NCBI GenBank assembly: GCA_028281765.1
Contig: JANQJF010000005.1
Location: 1 to 64,000 of the forward strand
Length of the DNA stretch: 64,000 nucleotides
Reading direction: 5' to 3'
DNA from: Planctomycetota bacterium
Lineage (GTDB): Bacteria; Planctomycetota; UBA1135; UBA2386
The position numbers were made by a program, and so were the translations under genes. Below the pieces are notes generated by a model. The model was not told the origin of the DNA, did not search any database, and saw only the letters and a list, made by a program, of their open reading frames with translations. Positions 1,914 to 57,867 of the stretch are shown here, one piece after another. Every line of letters starts with the position of its first letter. Within the stretch, counting starts at the first letter, position 1.

Positions 1914-4433
1914 ATGTCCGTCCCTCCGGTCGCTATCGAAACCGACGCGCTCCTCGCCGAGCTCGACTGGGTGCGCTCGCTCGCGCGCCACATCGCGCGG
2001 GATGCGCACAGTGCCGAGGACCTCGCGCAGGACACGATGCTCGTGGCGTTGCGCGACGACACGCATGCGTGGTCGCGTGAGGAACCCGGCGCGCTGCGGC
2101 GGTGGCTGGCTGCGATCGCGCGAAACCTCGGTCGCACGCGGGCCCGCAGCGAGCAGCGCCGCGCGCGGCGCGAAGCCGATGCGGCGCGGCCTCCGTCGGT
2201 TCCCGCGACCGATGCGTTGGTCGAGCGTGCGTCGACCTTGCGGGAAGTCGTCGACGCGTTGGTCGGGTTGCGTGAGCCGTATCGAACGACGCTGTTGCTG
2301 AGATTCTTCGAGGACTGCTCACAGCGCGAGATCGCCGAGCGCATGCAGGTGCCGATGTCGACCGTGGGCTCCCGGATCGCCGATGGGCTCGCGCTGCTGC
2401 GGCGCAAGGTGGGGCGGCGGGATCGATCGTTCGCGGGACTGCTGGCGTCGATGGCGGCGCCGCGCCGCGTCGGCGTGGGGACCGCGTTGCAGGGAGCTCT
2501 ACTCGTGAGTGTGCAAGTGAAGTTGTTGGCGGCCGTGCTCGTGGTCGCAGTCGCGTGGCTCGTGTTTCAAGTCGCGGGCGGAGACGAGCCCGTCACCGTC
2601 GATTCTGCCGCTGGAGCCGGGCCGGAGTCCGCAAGCGCCGCGGTGCCGCAGAACGCGACGAACGTGCGCGATGCGGTCGATGAAGAGGAATCGAAGTCCG
2701 AAGCCGACGGGTTCCATTCGATTCCGGCGCACGCGGGGATCGAGTTCGCCGCGGTGCGCGGCCGCGTCGTGGACTTGGCCGGCACGCCGGTCGCGAACGT
2801 CGACGTCGGCCGTGGCCGACCACTAGGCCGGTGGGCAGAGACTGGCGAGCTGATGCCGTCTCGCGTGCTCGATACCGTTCGTGCAGATGCGCAGGGCGAG
2901 TTCGAGATCGAAGCGGTGGTGCCGTTCACGCTCGGCGTCGTCGACGAGCGCTATGCGACCGTGTTCGAACGCGTGGTGCGGAATGCGGACGACACCGATG
3001 TCCTCGTGATCGTTGCGGAGAAGATGCCGCTCGGCGGTGTCGTGGTGGACGAACAGGGCGTCCCGATCGCGGGGGCGCGTGTCGTCGTGCAGGCGAACGT
3101 GTCCCGTCCCGGGCTGGACGTCACGGCGTCCCGGCTCGTCGTTCCGGAAGCGCGGACGGACGCGGGGGGTGCCTTCTCGCTCGCGGCGACTGTCGCGCTC
3201 GAAGGCGCGACGATGGTGTTCCGCGCGCCGGGGTTCGCCGACCTCACGCGCGCGATTCCCAAGGGGGGCGATCCGGCGATGGCGATCGTGATGGAGCAGA
3301 GCGACACGAGCCCCTACACGATTCGGGGGCGGGTCGAGATGCTGGACGGTCGGCCAGCGGTCGACGCCCACGTGTCGACCGGCGTGATGGCCGTGCCGAC
3401 GGATGCCGAAGGGCGCTTCCTCATCGACTTCGAGCCGTGGCTGGATGCCCGCGTCGACGAATCGGCGCCGACCGAGCTGACCGCGATCGTGGCGGGGTAT
3501 CTCCCCGTGACTCGAGTACTCCCGTCCGTGGACGAGGTGCGCGAGTCCGGGTGGCCGGAAGACATCGTGCTGCGCGTCGATGGCGAACCGTTGACGATGC
3601 GGGGCATCGTCGTGGACGGCGATGGCGAACCCGTAGCGGGAGTGCTGGTCGAGCCGACCGAGACCACGATGTTCGGGTGGGTGCCGGCGGCGCGTGGTCC
3701 CGGGGGCACGTATCAGACCCAGGAGCAGGCCGCGGGCGGTGGGGTCGCACGGACCGGGCGTGACGGGCGCTTCGAGTTGGGTGGGCTGCTCGATCGCGAC
3801 TATGTCGTGGGCGCGTTGCAGCGGCCATCGCTGTTGTTCCAGGAGTCCGAGCCGGTGCATGCGAGTGCGCAAGACGTGCGGATCGTGCTCGACGCGGCGG
3901 CGCTCGGCACAGTAGCAGGGCGCATCGTCGACGCCCAGGGACGCGGGCTCGAACGGGTGCGGGTGTCCGTGTCGCGCAAGCGCGTCGGCGAGCTCGTGAT
4001 CGGGAGCTTCGCGATGACGGATGCGGACGGGCGATTCGCTCTGACGCGTGTGACGACGACGCCGGCGTTCCTGCGCATCGAAGGGGACGCGATCGTGCCG
4101 GAGCTGTTCCGTGAACTGGGGCCGGACGCCGACCACGCTGACCTCGAGCTGGTGGTCGGACTGCGACGACGTCTCCAGTTCGAGTGGAGCAGTGATGCGG
4201 AGGAAGGCGAGCGCGTGGTCGTCGTCGACGCGTCGGGCGAGCGGCTGGACATGATGCGACTGTCCGGCAACAGCATCGGGGTGTCCCGCTCCGCGCCCTA
4301 TCGCGAGGGCGTGAGTCGCGTGTTCGTCGTCAGCGACCAGTCCGCGGCCGCCGTGGTCTACCGCGGCGAACGCGAGATCCGCCGCGTGCGGCTTTCGTTG
4401 CGCGACGACGGCGTGACCGTCGTGCGTCTCTGA
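1914..4433 (+). CDS. ECF-type sigma factor fused to a membrane helix and CarboxypepD-reg-like repeats
   Basis: An 839-aa protein combining a transcription factor and an exported region. Residues 15-80 match sigma-70 region 2 (HIARDAHSAEDLAQDTMLVA) and residues 108-165 region 4 with its helix-turn-helix (CSQREIAERMQVPMSTVGSR). One hydrophobic helix follows at about 200-222 (KLLAAVLVVAVAWLVFQV). The remaining ~600 residues carry about five copies of the G-x-V-x-D-x-x-G-x-P-V/I-x-x-A/V motif of carboxypeptidase regulatory-like domains, e.g. GVVVDEQGVPIAGARV. Predicted topology is sigma domains in the cytoplasm and repeats outside. The start at 1914 is the ATG directly before region 2; the open frame continues upstream to 1533 but lies inside the previous gene. 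No anti-sigma gene is adjacent. A paralogue with the same architecture is at 49417-52641. Its stop codon directly abuts that of typA. Confidence 0.85.
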   Translation: MSVPPVAIETDALLAELDWVRSLARHIARDAHSAEDLAQDTMLVALRDDTHAWSREEPGALRRWLAAIARNLGRTRARSEQRRARREADAARPPSVPATDALVERASTLREVVDALVGLREPYRTTLLLRFFEDCSQREIAERMQVPMSTVGSRIADGLALLRRKVGRRDRSFAGLLASMAAPRRVGVGTALQGALLVSVQVKLLAAVLVVAVAWLVFQVAGGDEPVTVDSAAGAGPESASAAVPQNATNVRDAVDEEESKSEADGFHSIPAHAGIEFAAVRGRVVDLAGTPVANVDVGRGRPLGRWAETGELMPSRVLDTVRADAQGEFEIEAVVPFTLGVVDERYATVFERVVRNADDTDVLVIVAEKMPLGGVVVDEQGVPIAGARVVVQANVSRPGLDVTASRLVVPEARTDAGGAFSLAATVALEGATMVFRAPGFADLTRAIPKGGDPAMAIVMEQSDTSPYTIRGRVEMLDGRPAVDAHVSTGVMAVPTDAEGRFLIDFEPWLDARVDESAPTELTAIVAGYLPVTRVLPSVDEVRESGWPEDIVLRVDGEPLTMRGIVVDGDGEPVAGVLVEPTETTMFGWVPAARGPGGTYQTQEQAAGGGVARTGRDGRFELGGLLDRDYVVGALQRPSLLFQESEPVHASAQDVRIVLDAAALGTVAGRIVDAQGRGLERVRVSVSRKRVGELVIGSFAMTDADGRFALTRVTTTPAFLRIEGDAIVPELFRELGPDADHADLELVVGLRRRLQFEWSSDAEEGERVVVVDASGERLDMMRLSGNSIGVSRSAPYREGVSRVFVVSDQSAAAVVYRGEREIRRVRLSLRDDGVTVVRL

Positions 4434-6254
4434 TCAGACCGAAGCGCGCTCGCGCTCGGTCTTCTTGCGGTCGGTCTCGCGCAGCTGGATCTTGCGCAGG
4501 CGCACGTGCTGCGGCGTGATCTCGACGTACTCGTCGTCGCCGACATATTCGAGCGCTTCTTCGACTCCGAACTTGCGCGGCGGGAGAAGCTTGACGAAGG
4601 CTTCCTTCGTCGCCGAGCGAATGTTGTTGAGCTTCTTTTCGCGCGCGAGGTTCACGACGAGGTCGTTCTCCTTGCAGTGCTCGCCGACGATCATGCCTTC
4701 GTAGATGTCGGTTTGCGGGTCGATGAAGAAGATGCCGCGGTCGCGCAGGTTGTCGAGCGAGTAGAAGGTCGCCTTGCCGGCGGCCATCGACACCAACACG
4801 CCGGCGGTGCGCTCTTGAATCGTGCCGCGGTGGGGGCCGTAGCTGTCGAACACATGGTGCAGTTGCGCCTGGCCCTGGGTCGCGTTGAGGACCCGGTTGC
4901 GCACGCCGATCAGTCCGCGCGCGGGCACGGTGAACTGGATGCGCTGGAACGAGCCCTTCGGCTCCATGTTGACCAGCTCCGCGCGGCGCTCACCGAGGAT
5001 CTCGATGACCTTGCCGCCGGACGTGTCCGGGCAGTCGACGGTGAGGCGTTCGATCGGCTCGAGCGTCTCGCCGTTCTCCTCGTGGAAGATGACCTCCGGC
5101 TTGCCGACCGAGACCTCGTAGCCCTCGCGACGCATCGTCTCGAGCAGGAAGCCGAGGTGCATGACGCCACGGCCCGAGACCTTGAAGGCGTCGGGGCTGT
5201 TCGTCGGGTCGACGCGCAGCGCGACGTTCGTGCGGAGCTCGCGATCGAGGCGCTCGCGGAGGTGGCGGCTCGTCAGATACTTGCCGTCCCGGCCCGCGAA
5301 CGGCGAGTCGTTGATGCGGAGCAGGATGCTCATCGTCGGCTCGTCGACCGCGACCGGCTCGAGCGGCTCGATGACTTCCGGATCGGTCAGGGACTCGCCG
5401 ATGTGCAGCTCGTCGATGCCGTAGATGCCGCAGATGTCGCCGGCCGATACGCCTTCGACTTCCGTGCGCTCCAGGCCGTTGAACGTGTAGATCCCGCGCA
5501 CGATCGCCGGGTGCTCCTTGCCGTCCCGATCGACGCGGCAGACCTGGTCCTTGACCTGGATCTTGCCGCGGTGCACGCGCCCGATCGCGATCCGGCCGAC
5601 GTAGTCCGACCATTCCAGCGTCGTGACGCGGAACTGCAGCGGGTCTTCCGCGGAGTCCGTGGGCGCGGGGATGTGGCCGAGGATCTGATCGAACAGCGGC
5701 TTCAGGTCGGTGCCGCGCTCGTTCTGATCGAGCGAGACCCAGCCGTCGCGACCCGAGCCGAACAGCACGGGGAACTCGAGCTGCGACTCGTTCGCATCGA
5801 GGTCGATGAACAGGTCGAAGACTTCGTTGACGACCTCCTGGCAGCGCGCGTCCGGCTTGTCGACCTTGTTGACGAGCACCATCGGCTCGAGGCCGTGCGA
5901 GAACGCCTTGCCGAGTACGAAGCGCGTCTGCGGCATCGGGCCCTCGGCTGCGTCGACGAGCAGCAGCACGCCGTCGGCCATCGAGAGAACGCGCTCGACC
6001 TCACCGCCGAAGTCGGCGTGTCCGGGCGTGTCGATGATGTTGATCTTGACGCCGCCGTATTCGACGACCGTGTTCTTCGCGAGGATCGTGATCCCGCGTT
6101 CGCGCTCCAGCTCGTTGGAGTCGAGGACACAGTCGACGACCTCTTGGTTGTCGCGGAAGATGCCACACTGCTTCAGCATCGCGTCGACCAACGTGGTCTT
6201 GCCATGATCGACGTGTGCGATGATCGCCAGGTTGCGGATGGAAGGAGTGGACAT
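4434..6254 (-). CDS. typA: Ribosome-associated translational GTPase TypA/BipA
   Basis: A 606-aa protein, the usual length for TypA/BipA, a ribosome-binding GTPase of the EF-G class that acts in ribosome assembly and stress adaptation. Visible motifs are the G1 loop AHVDHGKTT, G2 in ERERGITILAK, G3 DTPGH and G4 NKVDKPDA, followed by the EF-G-like domains III/V and the TypA-specific C-terminus (PRKFGVEEALEYVGDDEYVE). The start at 6254 (MSTPSIRNLAIIAHVD) fits the family; an upstream in-frame ATG at 6344 would add 30 unrelated residues. It converges on the sigma-factor gene with no intervening base. A candidate small RNA is encoded divergently upstream. Confidence 0.96.
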   Translation of the reverse strand: MSTPSIRNLAIIAHVDHGKTTLVDAMLKQCGIFRDNQEVVDCVLDSNELERERGITILAKNTVVEYGGVKINIIDTPGHADFGGEVERVLSMADGVLLLVDAAEGPMPQTRFVLGKAFSHGLEPMVLVNKVDKPDARCQEVVNEVFDLFIDLDANESQLEFPVLFGSGRDGWVSLDQNERGTDLKPLFDQILGHIPAPTDSAEDPLQFRVTTLEWSDYVGRIAIGRVHRGKIQVKDQVCRVDRDGKEHPAIVRGIYTFNGLERTEVEGVSAGDICGIYGIDELHIGESLTDPEVIEPLEPVAVDEPTMSILLRINDSPFAGRDGKYLTSRHLRERLDRELRTNVALRVDPTNSPDAFKVSGRGVMHLGFLLETMRREGYEVSVGKPEVIFHEENGETLEPIERLTVDCPDTSGGKVIEILGERRAELVNMEPKGSFQRIQFTVPARGLIGVRNRVLNATQGQAQLHHVFDSYGPHRGTIQERTAGVLVSMAAGKATFYSLDNLRDRGIFFIDPQTDIYEGMIVGEHCKENDLVVNLAREKKLNNIRSATKEAFVKLLPPRKFGVEEALEYVGDDEYVEITPQHVRLRKIQLRETDRKKTERERASV

Positions 6255-6449
6255 GCTCGCTCTTGTCGACTCGGTCGCCGTGGGGAGTTGTGCTTGGGGG
6301 TCGAAAAAGGCGGCGCATTGTCGCGAAGTGCGTTGCGCCGTCAATCGGTCGCGCGGGACGGCGTCCGCAACTCCGGTCGCGGTTGTCGATTTCTTCGACG
6401 TCTCTTCAGAAAAACGGAAACCTTTTGGGGTCTCGAGCCTTTAACAGGG

Positions 6450-49416: not shown

Positions 49417-52400
49417 ATGACGACGCGCACCGTCGACAAGCTGTTCGTTCGCTACGTTCGCACCGGCGATCCGCGCGCGTTGGCCACGGTGTTCGACGAG
49501 TCGGCGCCTGAGATCCTGCGCGTCGCGCGGCACCTCGCGCACGACGAGGCCGAGGCCGAAGACCTGCTGCAGGAGGCGTTCCTGCGCGCGATCGAGCGCG
49601 CGGATTCGTTCCGGCCCGGCGAACGCGTCGTGCCGTGGCTGATCGGGATCCTCGCGAACGGTGCGCGCACGCGGCAGCGCAAGCGCGCCCGCCACGCGGA
49701 GGCACCGCTGCCGGACCTCCGCGCCACGGACGATCCTGTCCGCGCCGCGCACGGCCACGACGTCGAACGCCGGATCCGGGACTCGCTCGCGGGTATCCCC
49801 GAGCCGTACCGCGACGTGCTCGAACGGCACCTCGCGCACGGGCAGTCCGGCGAGCAGATCGGCCGTGACCTCGGCTGTTCGCCGAACACAGTGCGCAGCC
49901 GATTGCGACGCGGGCTCCGTTTGCTGCGTCGGTCGCTGCCGGCCGGGTTCGCCGTCGCCTGCGATCGTGCGCGCGGGCTCGAGGCGGTGCGTCACGTCGT
50001 CATCACCCGAGCCGCGGCGAATCCCGCCGCGGCCGTGACCGCTTGGAATGCGTCGTTGCTCGGAGCGTGGGTGATGTGGAAGAAAGTCGGTGTCGTCGTC
50101 GGGGCGATCGTGGTGTTGGCAGCCGGTTGGTGGGCACTCGACCCCTGGGGTGCGGATTCGGACGGTGGGACTCTCGAGGTCGAGTCGCATGCGGAGACCG
50201 TGCGGCTCGACGAGCGAGTCGAGTCGACAGACGAGGGCGCGGTCGCGCGCACCGCGGTGCGCGGCGAAGCCGCTGCGGCAGGACCCGACGAGACGTATCG
50301 CACGGCGCTGACGCGCTATCACGGCAGGGTGCTCGACAGCGAGCGTGCGCCGGTGGGAGGGGCGACCGTCGAGCTGTATCGCATCGATCCGTTCGAGCTG
50401 TTCGTGCCCGGCGAGGCGCCGGCGGAGCTGCTGGCCGGGTCGGCGGTGACCGCAGCCGACGGCACGTTCCGATTCGCGGAGGTCGAGCCACGTGCGGTCG
50501 CGGTGCTGCGCGCCGAGCACGACGGCCTGAGTCGGCTGCGCATCGTCGAGACGATGCCCGGTCCCGGCGAGGAGGTGGATCTCGGGGACATCGAACTGCC
50601 CGCATGGACCGCGGTCGAGGGTCTGGTCGTCGACGCGGATGGCGAGCCGGTGGTCGGCGCGAACGTGCGCTCGATCGACGTGCCGCCGATGCTGCTGGGT
50701 TTGTTCCACGTGCAGCATCTCGACGTCGACGCGGGACAGGTGATTCTGCGTCGCGATCGCCCGCGCGTGGTCCCGCTGCCCGGCTGGGCCCGCGACGTCG
50801 TCGGGCGGTTCGCCTTCTGCCGTGCGAAGACCGGGGCCGACGGTCGCTTCCATCTCCGCGGCGTGCCGCCCGGCAGCAACGCGGTCATCGTGCAGAAGGA
50901 CGGTTTCACGACGGAGCTGCGATCCGCGGTGCGGGCGCGGCCTCACAAGACGGCGGACCTCGGTCGGATCCGCTTGCGTGAGGGAGAGCAGGCGGTCGTG
51001 CGCGTCGTGGACGACGCGGGAGTCGCGGTGCCGGACGCCGAAGTGTGGATCGCGCCGACCAACAGCGCGCAGCCGATCGACTTCGCGACGCAGGCGTCGC
51101 GGACGGACGAGCACGGGATCAGTCGGCGCGAGGGGGTGCCGTCGGGGCGGATCACAGTCGCCGTGCGGCGCAGTCGGGCGCACGCGTGGGTCGTCGCGGA
51201 TCCTGCGTTGGTCACCGCGGACGTCGTCGTTCGTCTGCCCGTTGCGCACGAGCTGACCGTGTTCGCGCGGGACCCGCACGGCGCGCCGATCGACGGGGCC
51301 GGGATGCGCATTGCGGCGGGCACGCTCGGGGACCTCGCCGATCAGTTTCCCGAAGTCGAACCCTGGCTCGATCGCGACGTGCGGGCCGAGTCGCCGGGAC
51401 GCCTCGTCGTCGACGATCTCGAAACCGGTCCCTACGTCGTGGAGCTGACAGCGCCCGGATTCGTTCCGCGCCGTGTCGCGGTGGACGTCGCGGCCCGGAC
51501 GCAAGAGTCCGTCGAGTTGCACCCCGGAGCCGAGGTCGTGGTCTACGTCACAGATGCACGCGGCGCGCCAGTTCGACATGCGGACGTGTCCTTCGAGCCG
51601 ATGGACGGGCTGTTGCCACCGCGGCGCTCCGGTCGGACCGATGCTGCAGGGCGGTGCGTGATCGCCGACGCGCCCCGCGGCGAGGTCAAGGTGGGGGCGC
51701 GCCACCCCGCGTTCGGGCTCGGCGCCGTCCAGGTGACCTGGCCGGTCGACACCGAAGTCGTGCTGCCGGATCCGGGCTCGATCGCAGGCATCGTCGAACC
51801 CGTCCCCGCACCGGGCACGGTCCTGCCGCGGTTGCTCGTCAACGGCGCCGATGCGACGACCAACGACGAGCCGTCGCGCATGGTGCTCGTCGACGAGGCT
51901 GGACGGTTCGAGGTGCACGGCCTGACGCCCGGGGAGTACCGCGTCAGCACGATGCCGAGCCTCGAGAACGTCCGCTCGGTCGGGTCGGGGCTTCAGCACT
52001 TCATGGTCGCGTCCGCGATGCACCGCGATCCGCCGAAGCACGTCGTTCGTCCCGGCGAGGTGACCCGCGTCGTCGTCCCGCGTAGCGGTCGCGAGCTCGA
52101 CTCGCACCACGGTACGGTGACGATTCGCGGCTCGGTGTTGGTCGACGGCGCTCCGCCGCGCGACTGCCAGGTCATGGTGTTCCACCACACGCTCGACGTG
52201 GTCCCGTTGGAGGTGGACGGGACGTTCGAGCTCACCGACGTCGCGGGCGGCTCCGCGCAGCTCGCCGTCGTCCGTGGCCGCACGGGCTCGGACGGAACCG
52301 AACACACGTTCTGGCGCCGAACGCTGGAGCTGCGCGGTGTCGACCAGATCGTCGAGGTGCGACTGCAGACCGGAGTCATCTCGGGGACGGTCGTTGCGCC

Positions 52401-52641
52401 CGAAGGCAGGTCGCCGGCAGGCGTCGTGGTGCGCGCCGCGGGTTCGCTGCGTGACACTGACGGTGCGCGCGCTTCGTTCGAGGCACAGACCGACGCGCAG
52501 GGGCGATTCGAGTTCGCCGGGTTGCCAGCGGGGATCTACCGCATCGGTCCGCGAAGGGGGGATGAGGACGGCGTCCCGTCAGAGCCGATCGAGCTGGTGG
52601 CCGGTGGGCGAAGGGATGGTGTCGAGGTGCAGCTGCGGTAG
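49417..52641 (+). CDS. Second ECF sigma factor fused to a membrane helix and CarboxypepD-reg-like repeats
   Basis: A 1074-aa paralogue in architecture of the gene at 1914-4433. Sigma region 2 spans residues 9-93 (LAHDEAEAEDLLQEAFLRAI), region 4 residues 120-176 (SGEQIGRDLGCSPNTVRSRL). A single membrane helix lies at 222-241 (VGVVVGAIVVLAAGWWAL). Residues 290-1074 hold seven or more carboxypeptidase regulatory-like repeats, recognisable by D-x-x-G-x-P-V-x-x-A and T-D-A-x-G-R-F (EGLVVDADGEPVVGANV, then TGADGRFHLRGVPPG; ISGTVVAPEGRSPAGVVV). Predicted: sigma domain inside, repeats outside. The sequences of the two paralogues differ much, so they are probably old duplicates or separate fusions. 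Possible leaderless start: CATAGC seven bases before ATG. Confidence 0.86.
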   Translation: MTTRTVDKLFVRYVRTGDPRALATVFDESAPEILRVARHLAHDEAEAEDLLQEAFLRAIERADSFRPGERVVPWLIGILANGARTRQRKRARHAEAPLPDLRATDDPVRAAHGHDVERRIRDSLAGIPEPYRDVLERHLAHGQSGEQIGRDLGCSPNTVRSRLRRGLRLLRRSLPAGFAVACDRARGLEAVRHVVITRAAANPAAAVTAWNASLLGAWVMWKKVGVVVGAIVVLAAGWWALDPWGADSDGGTLEVESHAETVRLDERVESTDEGAVARTAVRGEAAAAGPDETYRTALTRYHGRVLDSERAPVGGATVELYRIDPFELFVPGEAPAELLAGSAVTAADGTFRFAEVEPRAVAVLRAEHDGLSRLRIVETMPGPGEEVDLGDIELPAWTAVEGLVVDADGEPVVGANVRSIDVPPMLLGLFHVQHLDVDAGQVILRRDRPRVVPLPGWARDVVGRFAFCRAKTGADGRFHLRGVPPGSNAVIVQKDGFTTELRSAVRARPHKTADLGRIRLREGEQAVVRVVDDAGVAVPDAEVWIAPTNSAQPIDFATQASRTDEHGISRREGVPSGRITVAVRRSRAHAWVVADPALVTADVVVRLPVAHELTVFARDPHGAPIDGAGMRIAAGTLGDLADQFPEVEPWLDRDVRAESPGRLVVDDLETGPYVVELTAPGFVPRRVAVDVAARTQESVELHPGAEVVVYVTDARGAPVRHADVSFEPMDGLLPPRRSGRTDAAGRCVIADAPRGEVKVGARHPAFGLGAVQVTWPVDTEVVLPDPGSIAGIVEPVPAPGTVLPRLLVNGADATTNDEPSRMVLVDEAGRFEVHGLTPGEYRVSTMPSLENVRSVGSGLQHFMVASAMHRDPPKHVVRPGEVTRVVVPRSGRELDSHHGTVTIRGSVLVDGAPPRDCQVMVFHHTLDVVPLEVDGTFELTDVAGGSAQLAVVRGRTGSDGTEHTFWRRTLELRGVDQIVEVRLQTGVISGTVVAPEGRSPAGVVVRAAGSLRDTDGARASFEAQTDAQGRFEFAGLPAGIYRIGPRRGDEDGVPSEPIELVAGGRRDGVEVQLR

Positions 52642-57023: not shown

Positions 57024-57052
57024 TTGTGAATAAGCAACTTACGGCGTTACGT
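57024..57052 (+). promoter_or_regulatory. Weak candidate promoter for the sigma factor at 57100
   Basis: TTGTGA (57024-57029), a 17-bp spacer, then TTACGT (57047-57052). The region between the divergent GGDEF and sigma genes is relatively A/T-rich (AATAAGCAACTTACGG). No operator repeat was found. Confidence 0.25.
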
Positions 57053-57099
57053 CGGAAAGTGTCGCAGAATTGTCCGTTTGGCCCGGCTTTCGCATTCCC

Positions 57100-57867
57100 A
57101 TGGGCATGATCGCAACGACCCCAGCGAAGCCGATCGCGACCTCCGAGTCACCCCTCGACGCGGGCCGCGGCATGTTGGCTCGCCACGGCGACCAGGATCC
57201 TGTCGAACGCTACGCGACCCCAGCCAACGATCGCACCCGGCTGACGGACGCAACGGCGACAGCGCTGATGGATCTCTACCGCCGCACCCGTGCCGACGAA
57301 GTGTTCGAGAGTCTTGTCGAAGTCGCGCGTTCGTTCCTGACCGCCCGCGTCCGCGGTCGCCTACGGACACTTGGTTCGAATCTGGACCCCGCCGAAGTGC
57401 TGCAAGACGTGTTCATCAACGTCTACCGATACCCGGACCGTTTCGACGGTTCGCGCGCCGGTGCCTTCCGCGCCTGGTCCTCGACGATCGTCGACAACAC
57501 GATCCGTCGCCAGCTGCGCCAGACCCGTCGCGGTCCGGACATCCAGCTGCGGCCGATCGAGCTGCTGACGCACGAACCGGACTCGAGCAATCGCAACCCG
57601 TATGAACGCGCGCAGACGACGGAGGCCTGCGAGCGTGCGCTCGGAGCGATGCGCTACTTCCTGAGCTTCTACATGGCGGCCTATCTCGATCTCAGCGATC
57701 GCGAGCGGTTCGTCCTGCAGATGGTCGAAGTGCGCGGCATGCGCTACGCCCAGCTCGCCGAGGTCCTCGGCATTCGTCCGGAGGCGCTCAAGATGGTCGT
57801 CTTCCGCGCGCGCCGCAGGATCGCGGATCGGGTCGGGGGCTTCTTCGATCAGGTTCTGGCAGCCTAG
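57100..57867 (+). CDS. ECF-like RNA polymerase sigma factor
   Basis: A 255-aa sigma-70 family protein without membrane segments. Region 2 is at residues 65-125 (LDPAEVLQDVFINVYRYPDRF; FRAWSSTIVDNTIRRQ). Region 4 is at 195-250 (LSDRERFVLQMVEVRGMRYAQLAEVLGI, then ALKMVVFRARRRI). The linker between them is long, and an N-terminal extension of 50 residues precedes region 2, similar to sigma factors specific to planctomycetes. ATG 57100 or 57106 could start it. No anti-sigma gene is next to it; regulation may come through the divergent GGDEF protein, but this is inference. Confidence 0.83.
   Translation: MGMIATTPAKPIATSESPLDAGRGMLARHGDQDPVERYATPANDRTRLTDATATALMDLYRRTRADEVFESLVEVARSFLTARVRGRLRTLGSNLDPAEVLQDVFINVYRYPDRFDGSRAGAFRAWSSTIVDNTIRRQLRQTRRGPDIQLRPIELLTHEPDSSNRNPYERAQTTEACERALGAMRYFLSFYMAAYLDLSDRERFVLQMVEVRGMRYAQLAEVLGIRPEALKMVVFRARRRIADRVGGFFDQVLAA

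Follow-up and report, generated by a model that had tools for sequence, protein, structure and literature searches.

Near the start of the window (the whole 64,000-nucleotide stretch of planctomycete DNA that was analysed), we identified an open reading frame at positions 1914-4433 on the forward strand that joins a sigma factor to a predicted membrane helix and a large outer region. The frame begins with ATG at 1914, ends with a stop codon at 4431-4433 and encodes a protein of 839 amino acids (~90 kDa). Its translation, Pfam matches and AlphaFold2 model give the order of parts as ECF sigma factor, linker, one transmembrane (TM) helix, acidic stalk and CarboxypepD_reg/CnaB-like beta domains. 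The initial annotation, which had described sigma regions 2 and 4, one helix and beta domains in a single frame, is thus borne out by the ORF, Pfam, hydropathy and the structural model. Sigma-70 region 2 lies at 1959-2162 (residues 16-83; Sigma70_r2, PF04542, E = 3.4e-8) and region 4 at 2241-2396 (residues 110-161; Sigma70_r4_2, PF08281, E = 3.6e-10), and the sigma70-ECF model TIGR02937 scores above its cut-off. The presence of sigma2 and sigma4 without sigma1.1 and sigma3 (Pfam, TIGR02937, AlphaFold2/Foldseek) identifies an ECF (group 4) sigma factor. Region 4 retains the helix-turn-helix residues that are conserved in the paralog alignment, which speaks against the possibility, raised earlier, that it is unable to bind DNA.

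The sigma module is followed by a predicted cytoplasmic linker (2409-2492, approximately residues 166-193), in which a W..AL.PLA pattern recurs in an alignment of 58 paralogs from the same genome. The membrane helix (2523-2579, residues 204-222) is the sole hydrophobic helix of the protein (best 19-residue Kyte-Doolittle mean 2.49), with R/K residues ahead of it and acidic residues behind. The charge before the helix is more positive than that after it in 57 of the 58 paralogs, which predicts an N-in helix and a sigma module in the cytoplasm, the topology expected from the start. Many of the helices are directly followed by aromatic residues, which suggests an anchor rather than a cleaved signal. 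Between the helix and the beta region is an acidic, poorly ordered stalk of ~55 residues.

The outer beta domains occupy 2745-4430 (residues 278-839) and include five stretches matching CarboxypepD_reg (PF13620, E = 1.3e-25). The initial annotation gave them as ~600 residues; their beta nature holds, and their length is closer to 560 residues behind the stalk. The AlphaFold2 model, built with 50 paralogs (mean pLDDT 79.9), has a confident sigma fold at residues 10-181, a low-confidence linker, TM and acidic stalk segment at 183-275, and beta domains at 278-839. Foldseek searches of the PDB matched the sigma part to M. tuberculosis SigE, E. coli sigma-E and SigW, and for the outer part the matches were shaft pilins of the CnaB type. 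As modelled, the outer domains are generic, extended prealbumin/CnaB-like beta sandwiches that point to no particular ligand. Thus, the proposal that the repeats bind cell wall or polysaccharide finds no support.

An anti-sigma domain hidden within the protein (ZAS, FecR or RskA) was considered and ruled out, as Pfam returned no zf-HC2, RskA or FecR match even at E <= 1. No anti-sigma gene adjoins the fusion gene within the window, as had been noted. The upstream ORF (827-1852) is without a Pfam match, and the downstream ORF (4434-6344, minus strand) resembles a BipA/TypA GTPase by eye. A second gene of the fusion family is present at 49417-52641 on the forward strand (sigma-TM-CarboxypepD_reg, 1074 amino acids), with an internal GGAG at 50062-50065 and an ATG at 50074. 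The window also carries a plain short ECF sigma factor with regions 2 and 4 only (57034-57864, forward strand).

In the genome from which the window derives (8.78 Mb, 88.8% complete), at least 143 genes of sigma type match the family profile. By a count of the profile-match listing, ~74 of these genes continue past the helix as long frames (roughly 600-1900 codons), so that such fusions account for about half of the sigma factors detected. In nearly all of the 58 paralogs inspected in detail, a linker of 30-50 residues joins the sigma module to a single helix, and an acidic stalk leads on to a long tail; the paralogs share 25-39% identity with the window gene over sigma, linker and TM. Pfam identified both sigma regions in 50 of 50 paralogs searched and CarboxypepD_reg in 46; WD40 is not among the 25 commonest families in this set. 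The repertoire for signalling is very large overall, with at least 97 Ser/Thr kinase matches alongside the at least 143 sigma-70-type matches.

Profile matches were obtained in each of the 41 searched genomes from the same family and order (E <= 1e-20) and in 166 of 246 genomes sampled across the phylum (E <= 1e-25), tallies that overstate the fusion because weak matches take in plain sigma factors; even so, long frames turn up in many families. Most of the named relatives are Planctomycetota MAGs; the isolate Pla86 is another, from the order to which the window genome also belongs. The architecture, whose spread the initial annotation had left to a profile search, is not unique, and related genes occur across Planctomycetota. 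A frame error in the assembly at the helix, or a chimera, is rejected because the identical junction recurs in the 58 paralogs and in genomes across the phylum.

Just ahead of the helix, the gene contains what resembles a second ribosome binding site. A Shine-Dalgarno (SD)-like AGGGAG is located at 2491-2496, with its GGAG at 2493-2496 using the GGA codon of Gly194. Eight nucleotides after the GGAG is a predicted in-frame GTG start (2505-2507), which is Val198 of the long form. Initiation here would yield a product without the sigma module, encoded at 2505-4433 (642 amino acids, ~68 kDa). The same arrangement, an in-frame GGAG, 8 nt and then ATG, GTG or TTG, occurs in many members of the family. 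In the junction alignment, many paralogs have Met just ahead of the helix and K-rich residues next, resembling the N-terminus of a membrane-anchored protein. In the genome's own paralogs, the pre-helix column holds Met in 26 cases. Another 7 have Val, always encoded by GTG, and 4 have Leu, for which TTG is used in three.

Codon choice at these sites is biased. Where Gly stands four codons ahead of the internal Met, its codon is GGA in 14 of 16 own paralogs (background 14.9%, p = 2e-10, a partly post hoc value since the motif was spotted in this set before it was tried elsewhere), and in 19 of 23 loci taken from elsewhere in the phylum (background 14.1%, p = 3e-13), where replication is cleaner. 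An SD plus start precedes the TM in 21/58, 25/56 and 12/28 genes of three sets, compared with 4.0, 6.6 and 3.5 by chance; the sequences within each set are related and not fully independent. The observed counts exceed every one of 1000 synonymous shuffles, which preserved each amino acid and the codon usage of each gene (maxima 10, 14 and 10). The combination is present in 41% of genes within the stretch of 20 codons that leads up to the helix, as against roughly 3-12% in windows elsewhere in those genes, and the spacer is exactly 8 nt at 39 of 88 sites. The internal SD and start are under selection at the synonymous level in the family, a result reproduced with further genomes of the phylum. 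Selection was computed for the family as a whole, and the site of the window gene is known from its own sequence. A recognisable SD plus start is present in ~35-65% of family genes, depending on the set and motif list; the remaining genes may use weaker signals or have no internal start.

An SD-like element need not signal initiation. It could instead pause elongation and so aid insertion of the helix, in which case the gene would make nothing but a tethered sigma factor, with proteolysis or a change in conformation activating it. The site does directly precede the membrane helix, and in E. coli SD-like elements pause elongation within genes for membrane proteins, among other places right ahead of TM2 (PMC4359368). 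However, pausing would not require a start codon, whereas ATG, GTG or TTG stands at codon +4 in 52 of the 69 genes with GGA-G. Val at this codon is GTG in 12 of 13 cases, with no such bias for Val at other offsets (p = 1e-4). In addition, early-codon enrichment of pauses was not seen for E. coli proteins whose N-terminal tail ahead of TM1 is long (PMC4359368). Moreover, membrane Ser/Thr kinases of related genomes, which have a similar plan of cytosolic domain, helix and outer domain, lack the signal (2/24 genes vs 1.5 expected; p = 0.001 for the difference from the sigma family, with a small kinase control). We consider a single product unlikely.

The genome also offers a possible starting point for the fusion. 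Several short sigma factors have a stop codon that overlaps the start (ATGA, offset -1) of a separate membrane-protein gene (L007, L008, L013, L017, L021, L027, L029), an overlap suggesting that sigma and a membrane anti-sigma are translationally coupled. Matches to zf-HC2 anti-sigma domains mostly adjoin short sigmas. Thus, the genome has textbook and fused arrangements alike. Joining of such an overlapping pair could have left the internal ribosome binding site and start as a fading relic, with only the fused protein mattering now, and the site is indeed missing from many family members. At 25-39% paralog identity, however, unselected synonymous sites should be erased, yet GGA and GTG are kept across the phylum. 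Pairs of a split sigma and an M-TM-beta gene were also not seen beside short sigmas at the loci inspected (one search covered a single strand). A relic is the least probable of the alternatives that we weighed.

We therefore favour two products from one gene, with sigma most likely released by proteolysis, and put the probability of this at roughly 55%. The same probability is given to a phylum-wide dual-product family in which each tethered sigma factor is accompanied by a sigma-less twin receptor made from a conserved internal ribosome binding site, with the dose of the twin tuning the response. The sigma2-sigma4 module would lie in the cytoplasm, connected by the short linker and N-in helix to an external stalk and CnaB-like repeats. 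The tether would restrain sigma, and an external event would be sensed through the same polypeptide. The 68-kDa short form, translated from its own ribosome binding site and start just ahead of the helix, would have an identical anchor and outer domain. It may determine the proportions of signalling and non-signalling receptors, either via mixed assembly or by competition for ligand or protease. The initial description of a one-piece transmembrane device is probably half right: there is a single tethered polypeptide, and the conserved internal start would supply a sigma-less receptor as well.

Production of two proteins from one frame has precedents in AerR, SpaO, MrcB and ClpB, in which the short protein is without an N-terminal part and sometimes opposes the long one (PMC6199135, PMC11005335). 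The two isoforms of AerR, for example, can act oppositely (PMC6199135). Among the cases identified, none involves the loss of a sigma factor from a membrane-spanning receptor, and none is repeated in dozens of paralogs within a single genome.

For the tethered long form, activation would most likely involve stepwise proteolysis, with trimming of the outer part followed by cleavage at the helix by a site-2 protease. The genome encodes an RseP-like M50 site-2 protease and seven S41 matches, none of them linked to the window gene. Proteases of both types are common across bacteria. We infer regulated release from these homologues and from IutY of Pseudomonas putida, an ECF243 sigma/anti-sigma hybrid that is activated by Prc and RseP (PMC5411451, PMC8999054). 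As in IutY, proteolysis would free a sigma fragment of roughly 20-22 kDa. The sigma factor could alternatively work while attached to the membrane, or via a conformational switch without proteolysis, with promoters coming to the membrane. ECF sigmas of Tuwongella were recovered in detergent-soluble and not Tris-soluble fractions (PMC8567305), and the missing linkage of the window gene to a protease gene is also consistent with this. However, the Tuwongella proteins mostly have WD40 domains and belong to a different family, whereas IutY, the only experimentally characterised sigma-TM protein of this kind, requires both proteases. Function in the attached state thus seems rather improbable, more so than a single product though less so than a relic, and release by proteolysis is preferred.

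Membrane-tethered sigma factors are already known (IutY, ECF52/SCO4117); what appears to be new here is a one-piece receptor without their anti-sigma or zinc-finger domain. IutY likewise has an N-terminal cytosolic ECF sigma, one TM and a C-terminal external (periplasmic) domain in one polypeptide (PMC5411451). It differs in being 374 amino acids long, in carrying a FecR-type anti-sigma domain in the periplasm and in lying next to the gene of an outer-membrane receptor. The window gene shows neither a FecR-type match (E <= 1) nor a neighbouring receptor gene; it has ~615 external residues with CnaB-like repeats, dozens of paralogs and the internal start motif. ECF52/SCO4117 of Streptomyces also fuses an ECF sigma to a TM and an external module, and proteolytic release has been proposed (PMC5826349, PMC8999054). 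In that group, which is found in Actinobacteria only, a ZAS-like zinc finger separates sigma from the TM, and the proteins also have a stalk rich in proline and a carbohydrate-binding module. In the window protein there is no zf-HC2 match at E <= 1 and no carbohydrate-binding module recognised by Pfam, and CarboxypepD_reg repeats are present instead. Planctomycete ECF57 (ECF01-Gob) and other WD40-tailed ECFs share a long C-terminal repeat extension and the lack of a known anti-sigma (PMC8999054, PMC8567305). Their repeats are WD40, for which Pfam gives no match in the window protein; CarboxypepD_reg takes their place, a separation that is based on the tail.

If about half of the detected sigma factors are indeed covalent transmembrane receptors, as they appear to be, these planctomycetes would use dozens of one-gene transcription receptors alongside textbook sigma/anti-sigma pairs. 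With an internal start selected at the junction, many of the long genes would be mis-annotated as encoding a single protein, and control of sigma signalling by receptor/decoy-type dosage would be indicated.

Sequences upstream of the family show no enrichment of the ECF promoter AAC-N15-17-CGT (5 vs 6.3 expected). A weak common element, approximately (C/G)GATTTCYYG(C/A)AA or GAATTC, was identified upstream of many fused sigma genes (~1870-1890 in the window; paralogs L031-L084). GAATTC occurs upstream of 16 of 58 such genes vs 1.2 expected under simple shuffling, which is a crude null model, and the element is possibly a common promoter. Among distant planctomycete sigma-TM fusions with other tails (L210, L214, L215, L226; some may be ECF57-like), a few cases have GGA/GGG-rich codons shortly before a helix-side ATG or TTG. 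The internal start may extend beyond the CarboxypepD_reg family.
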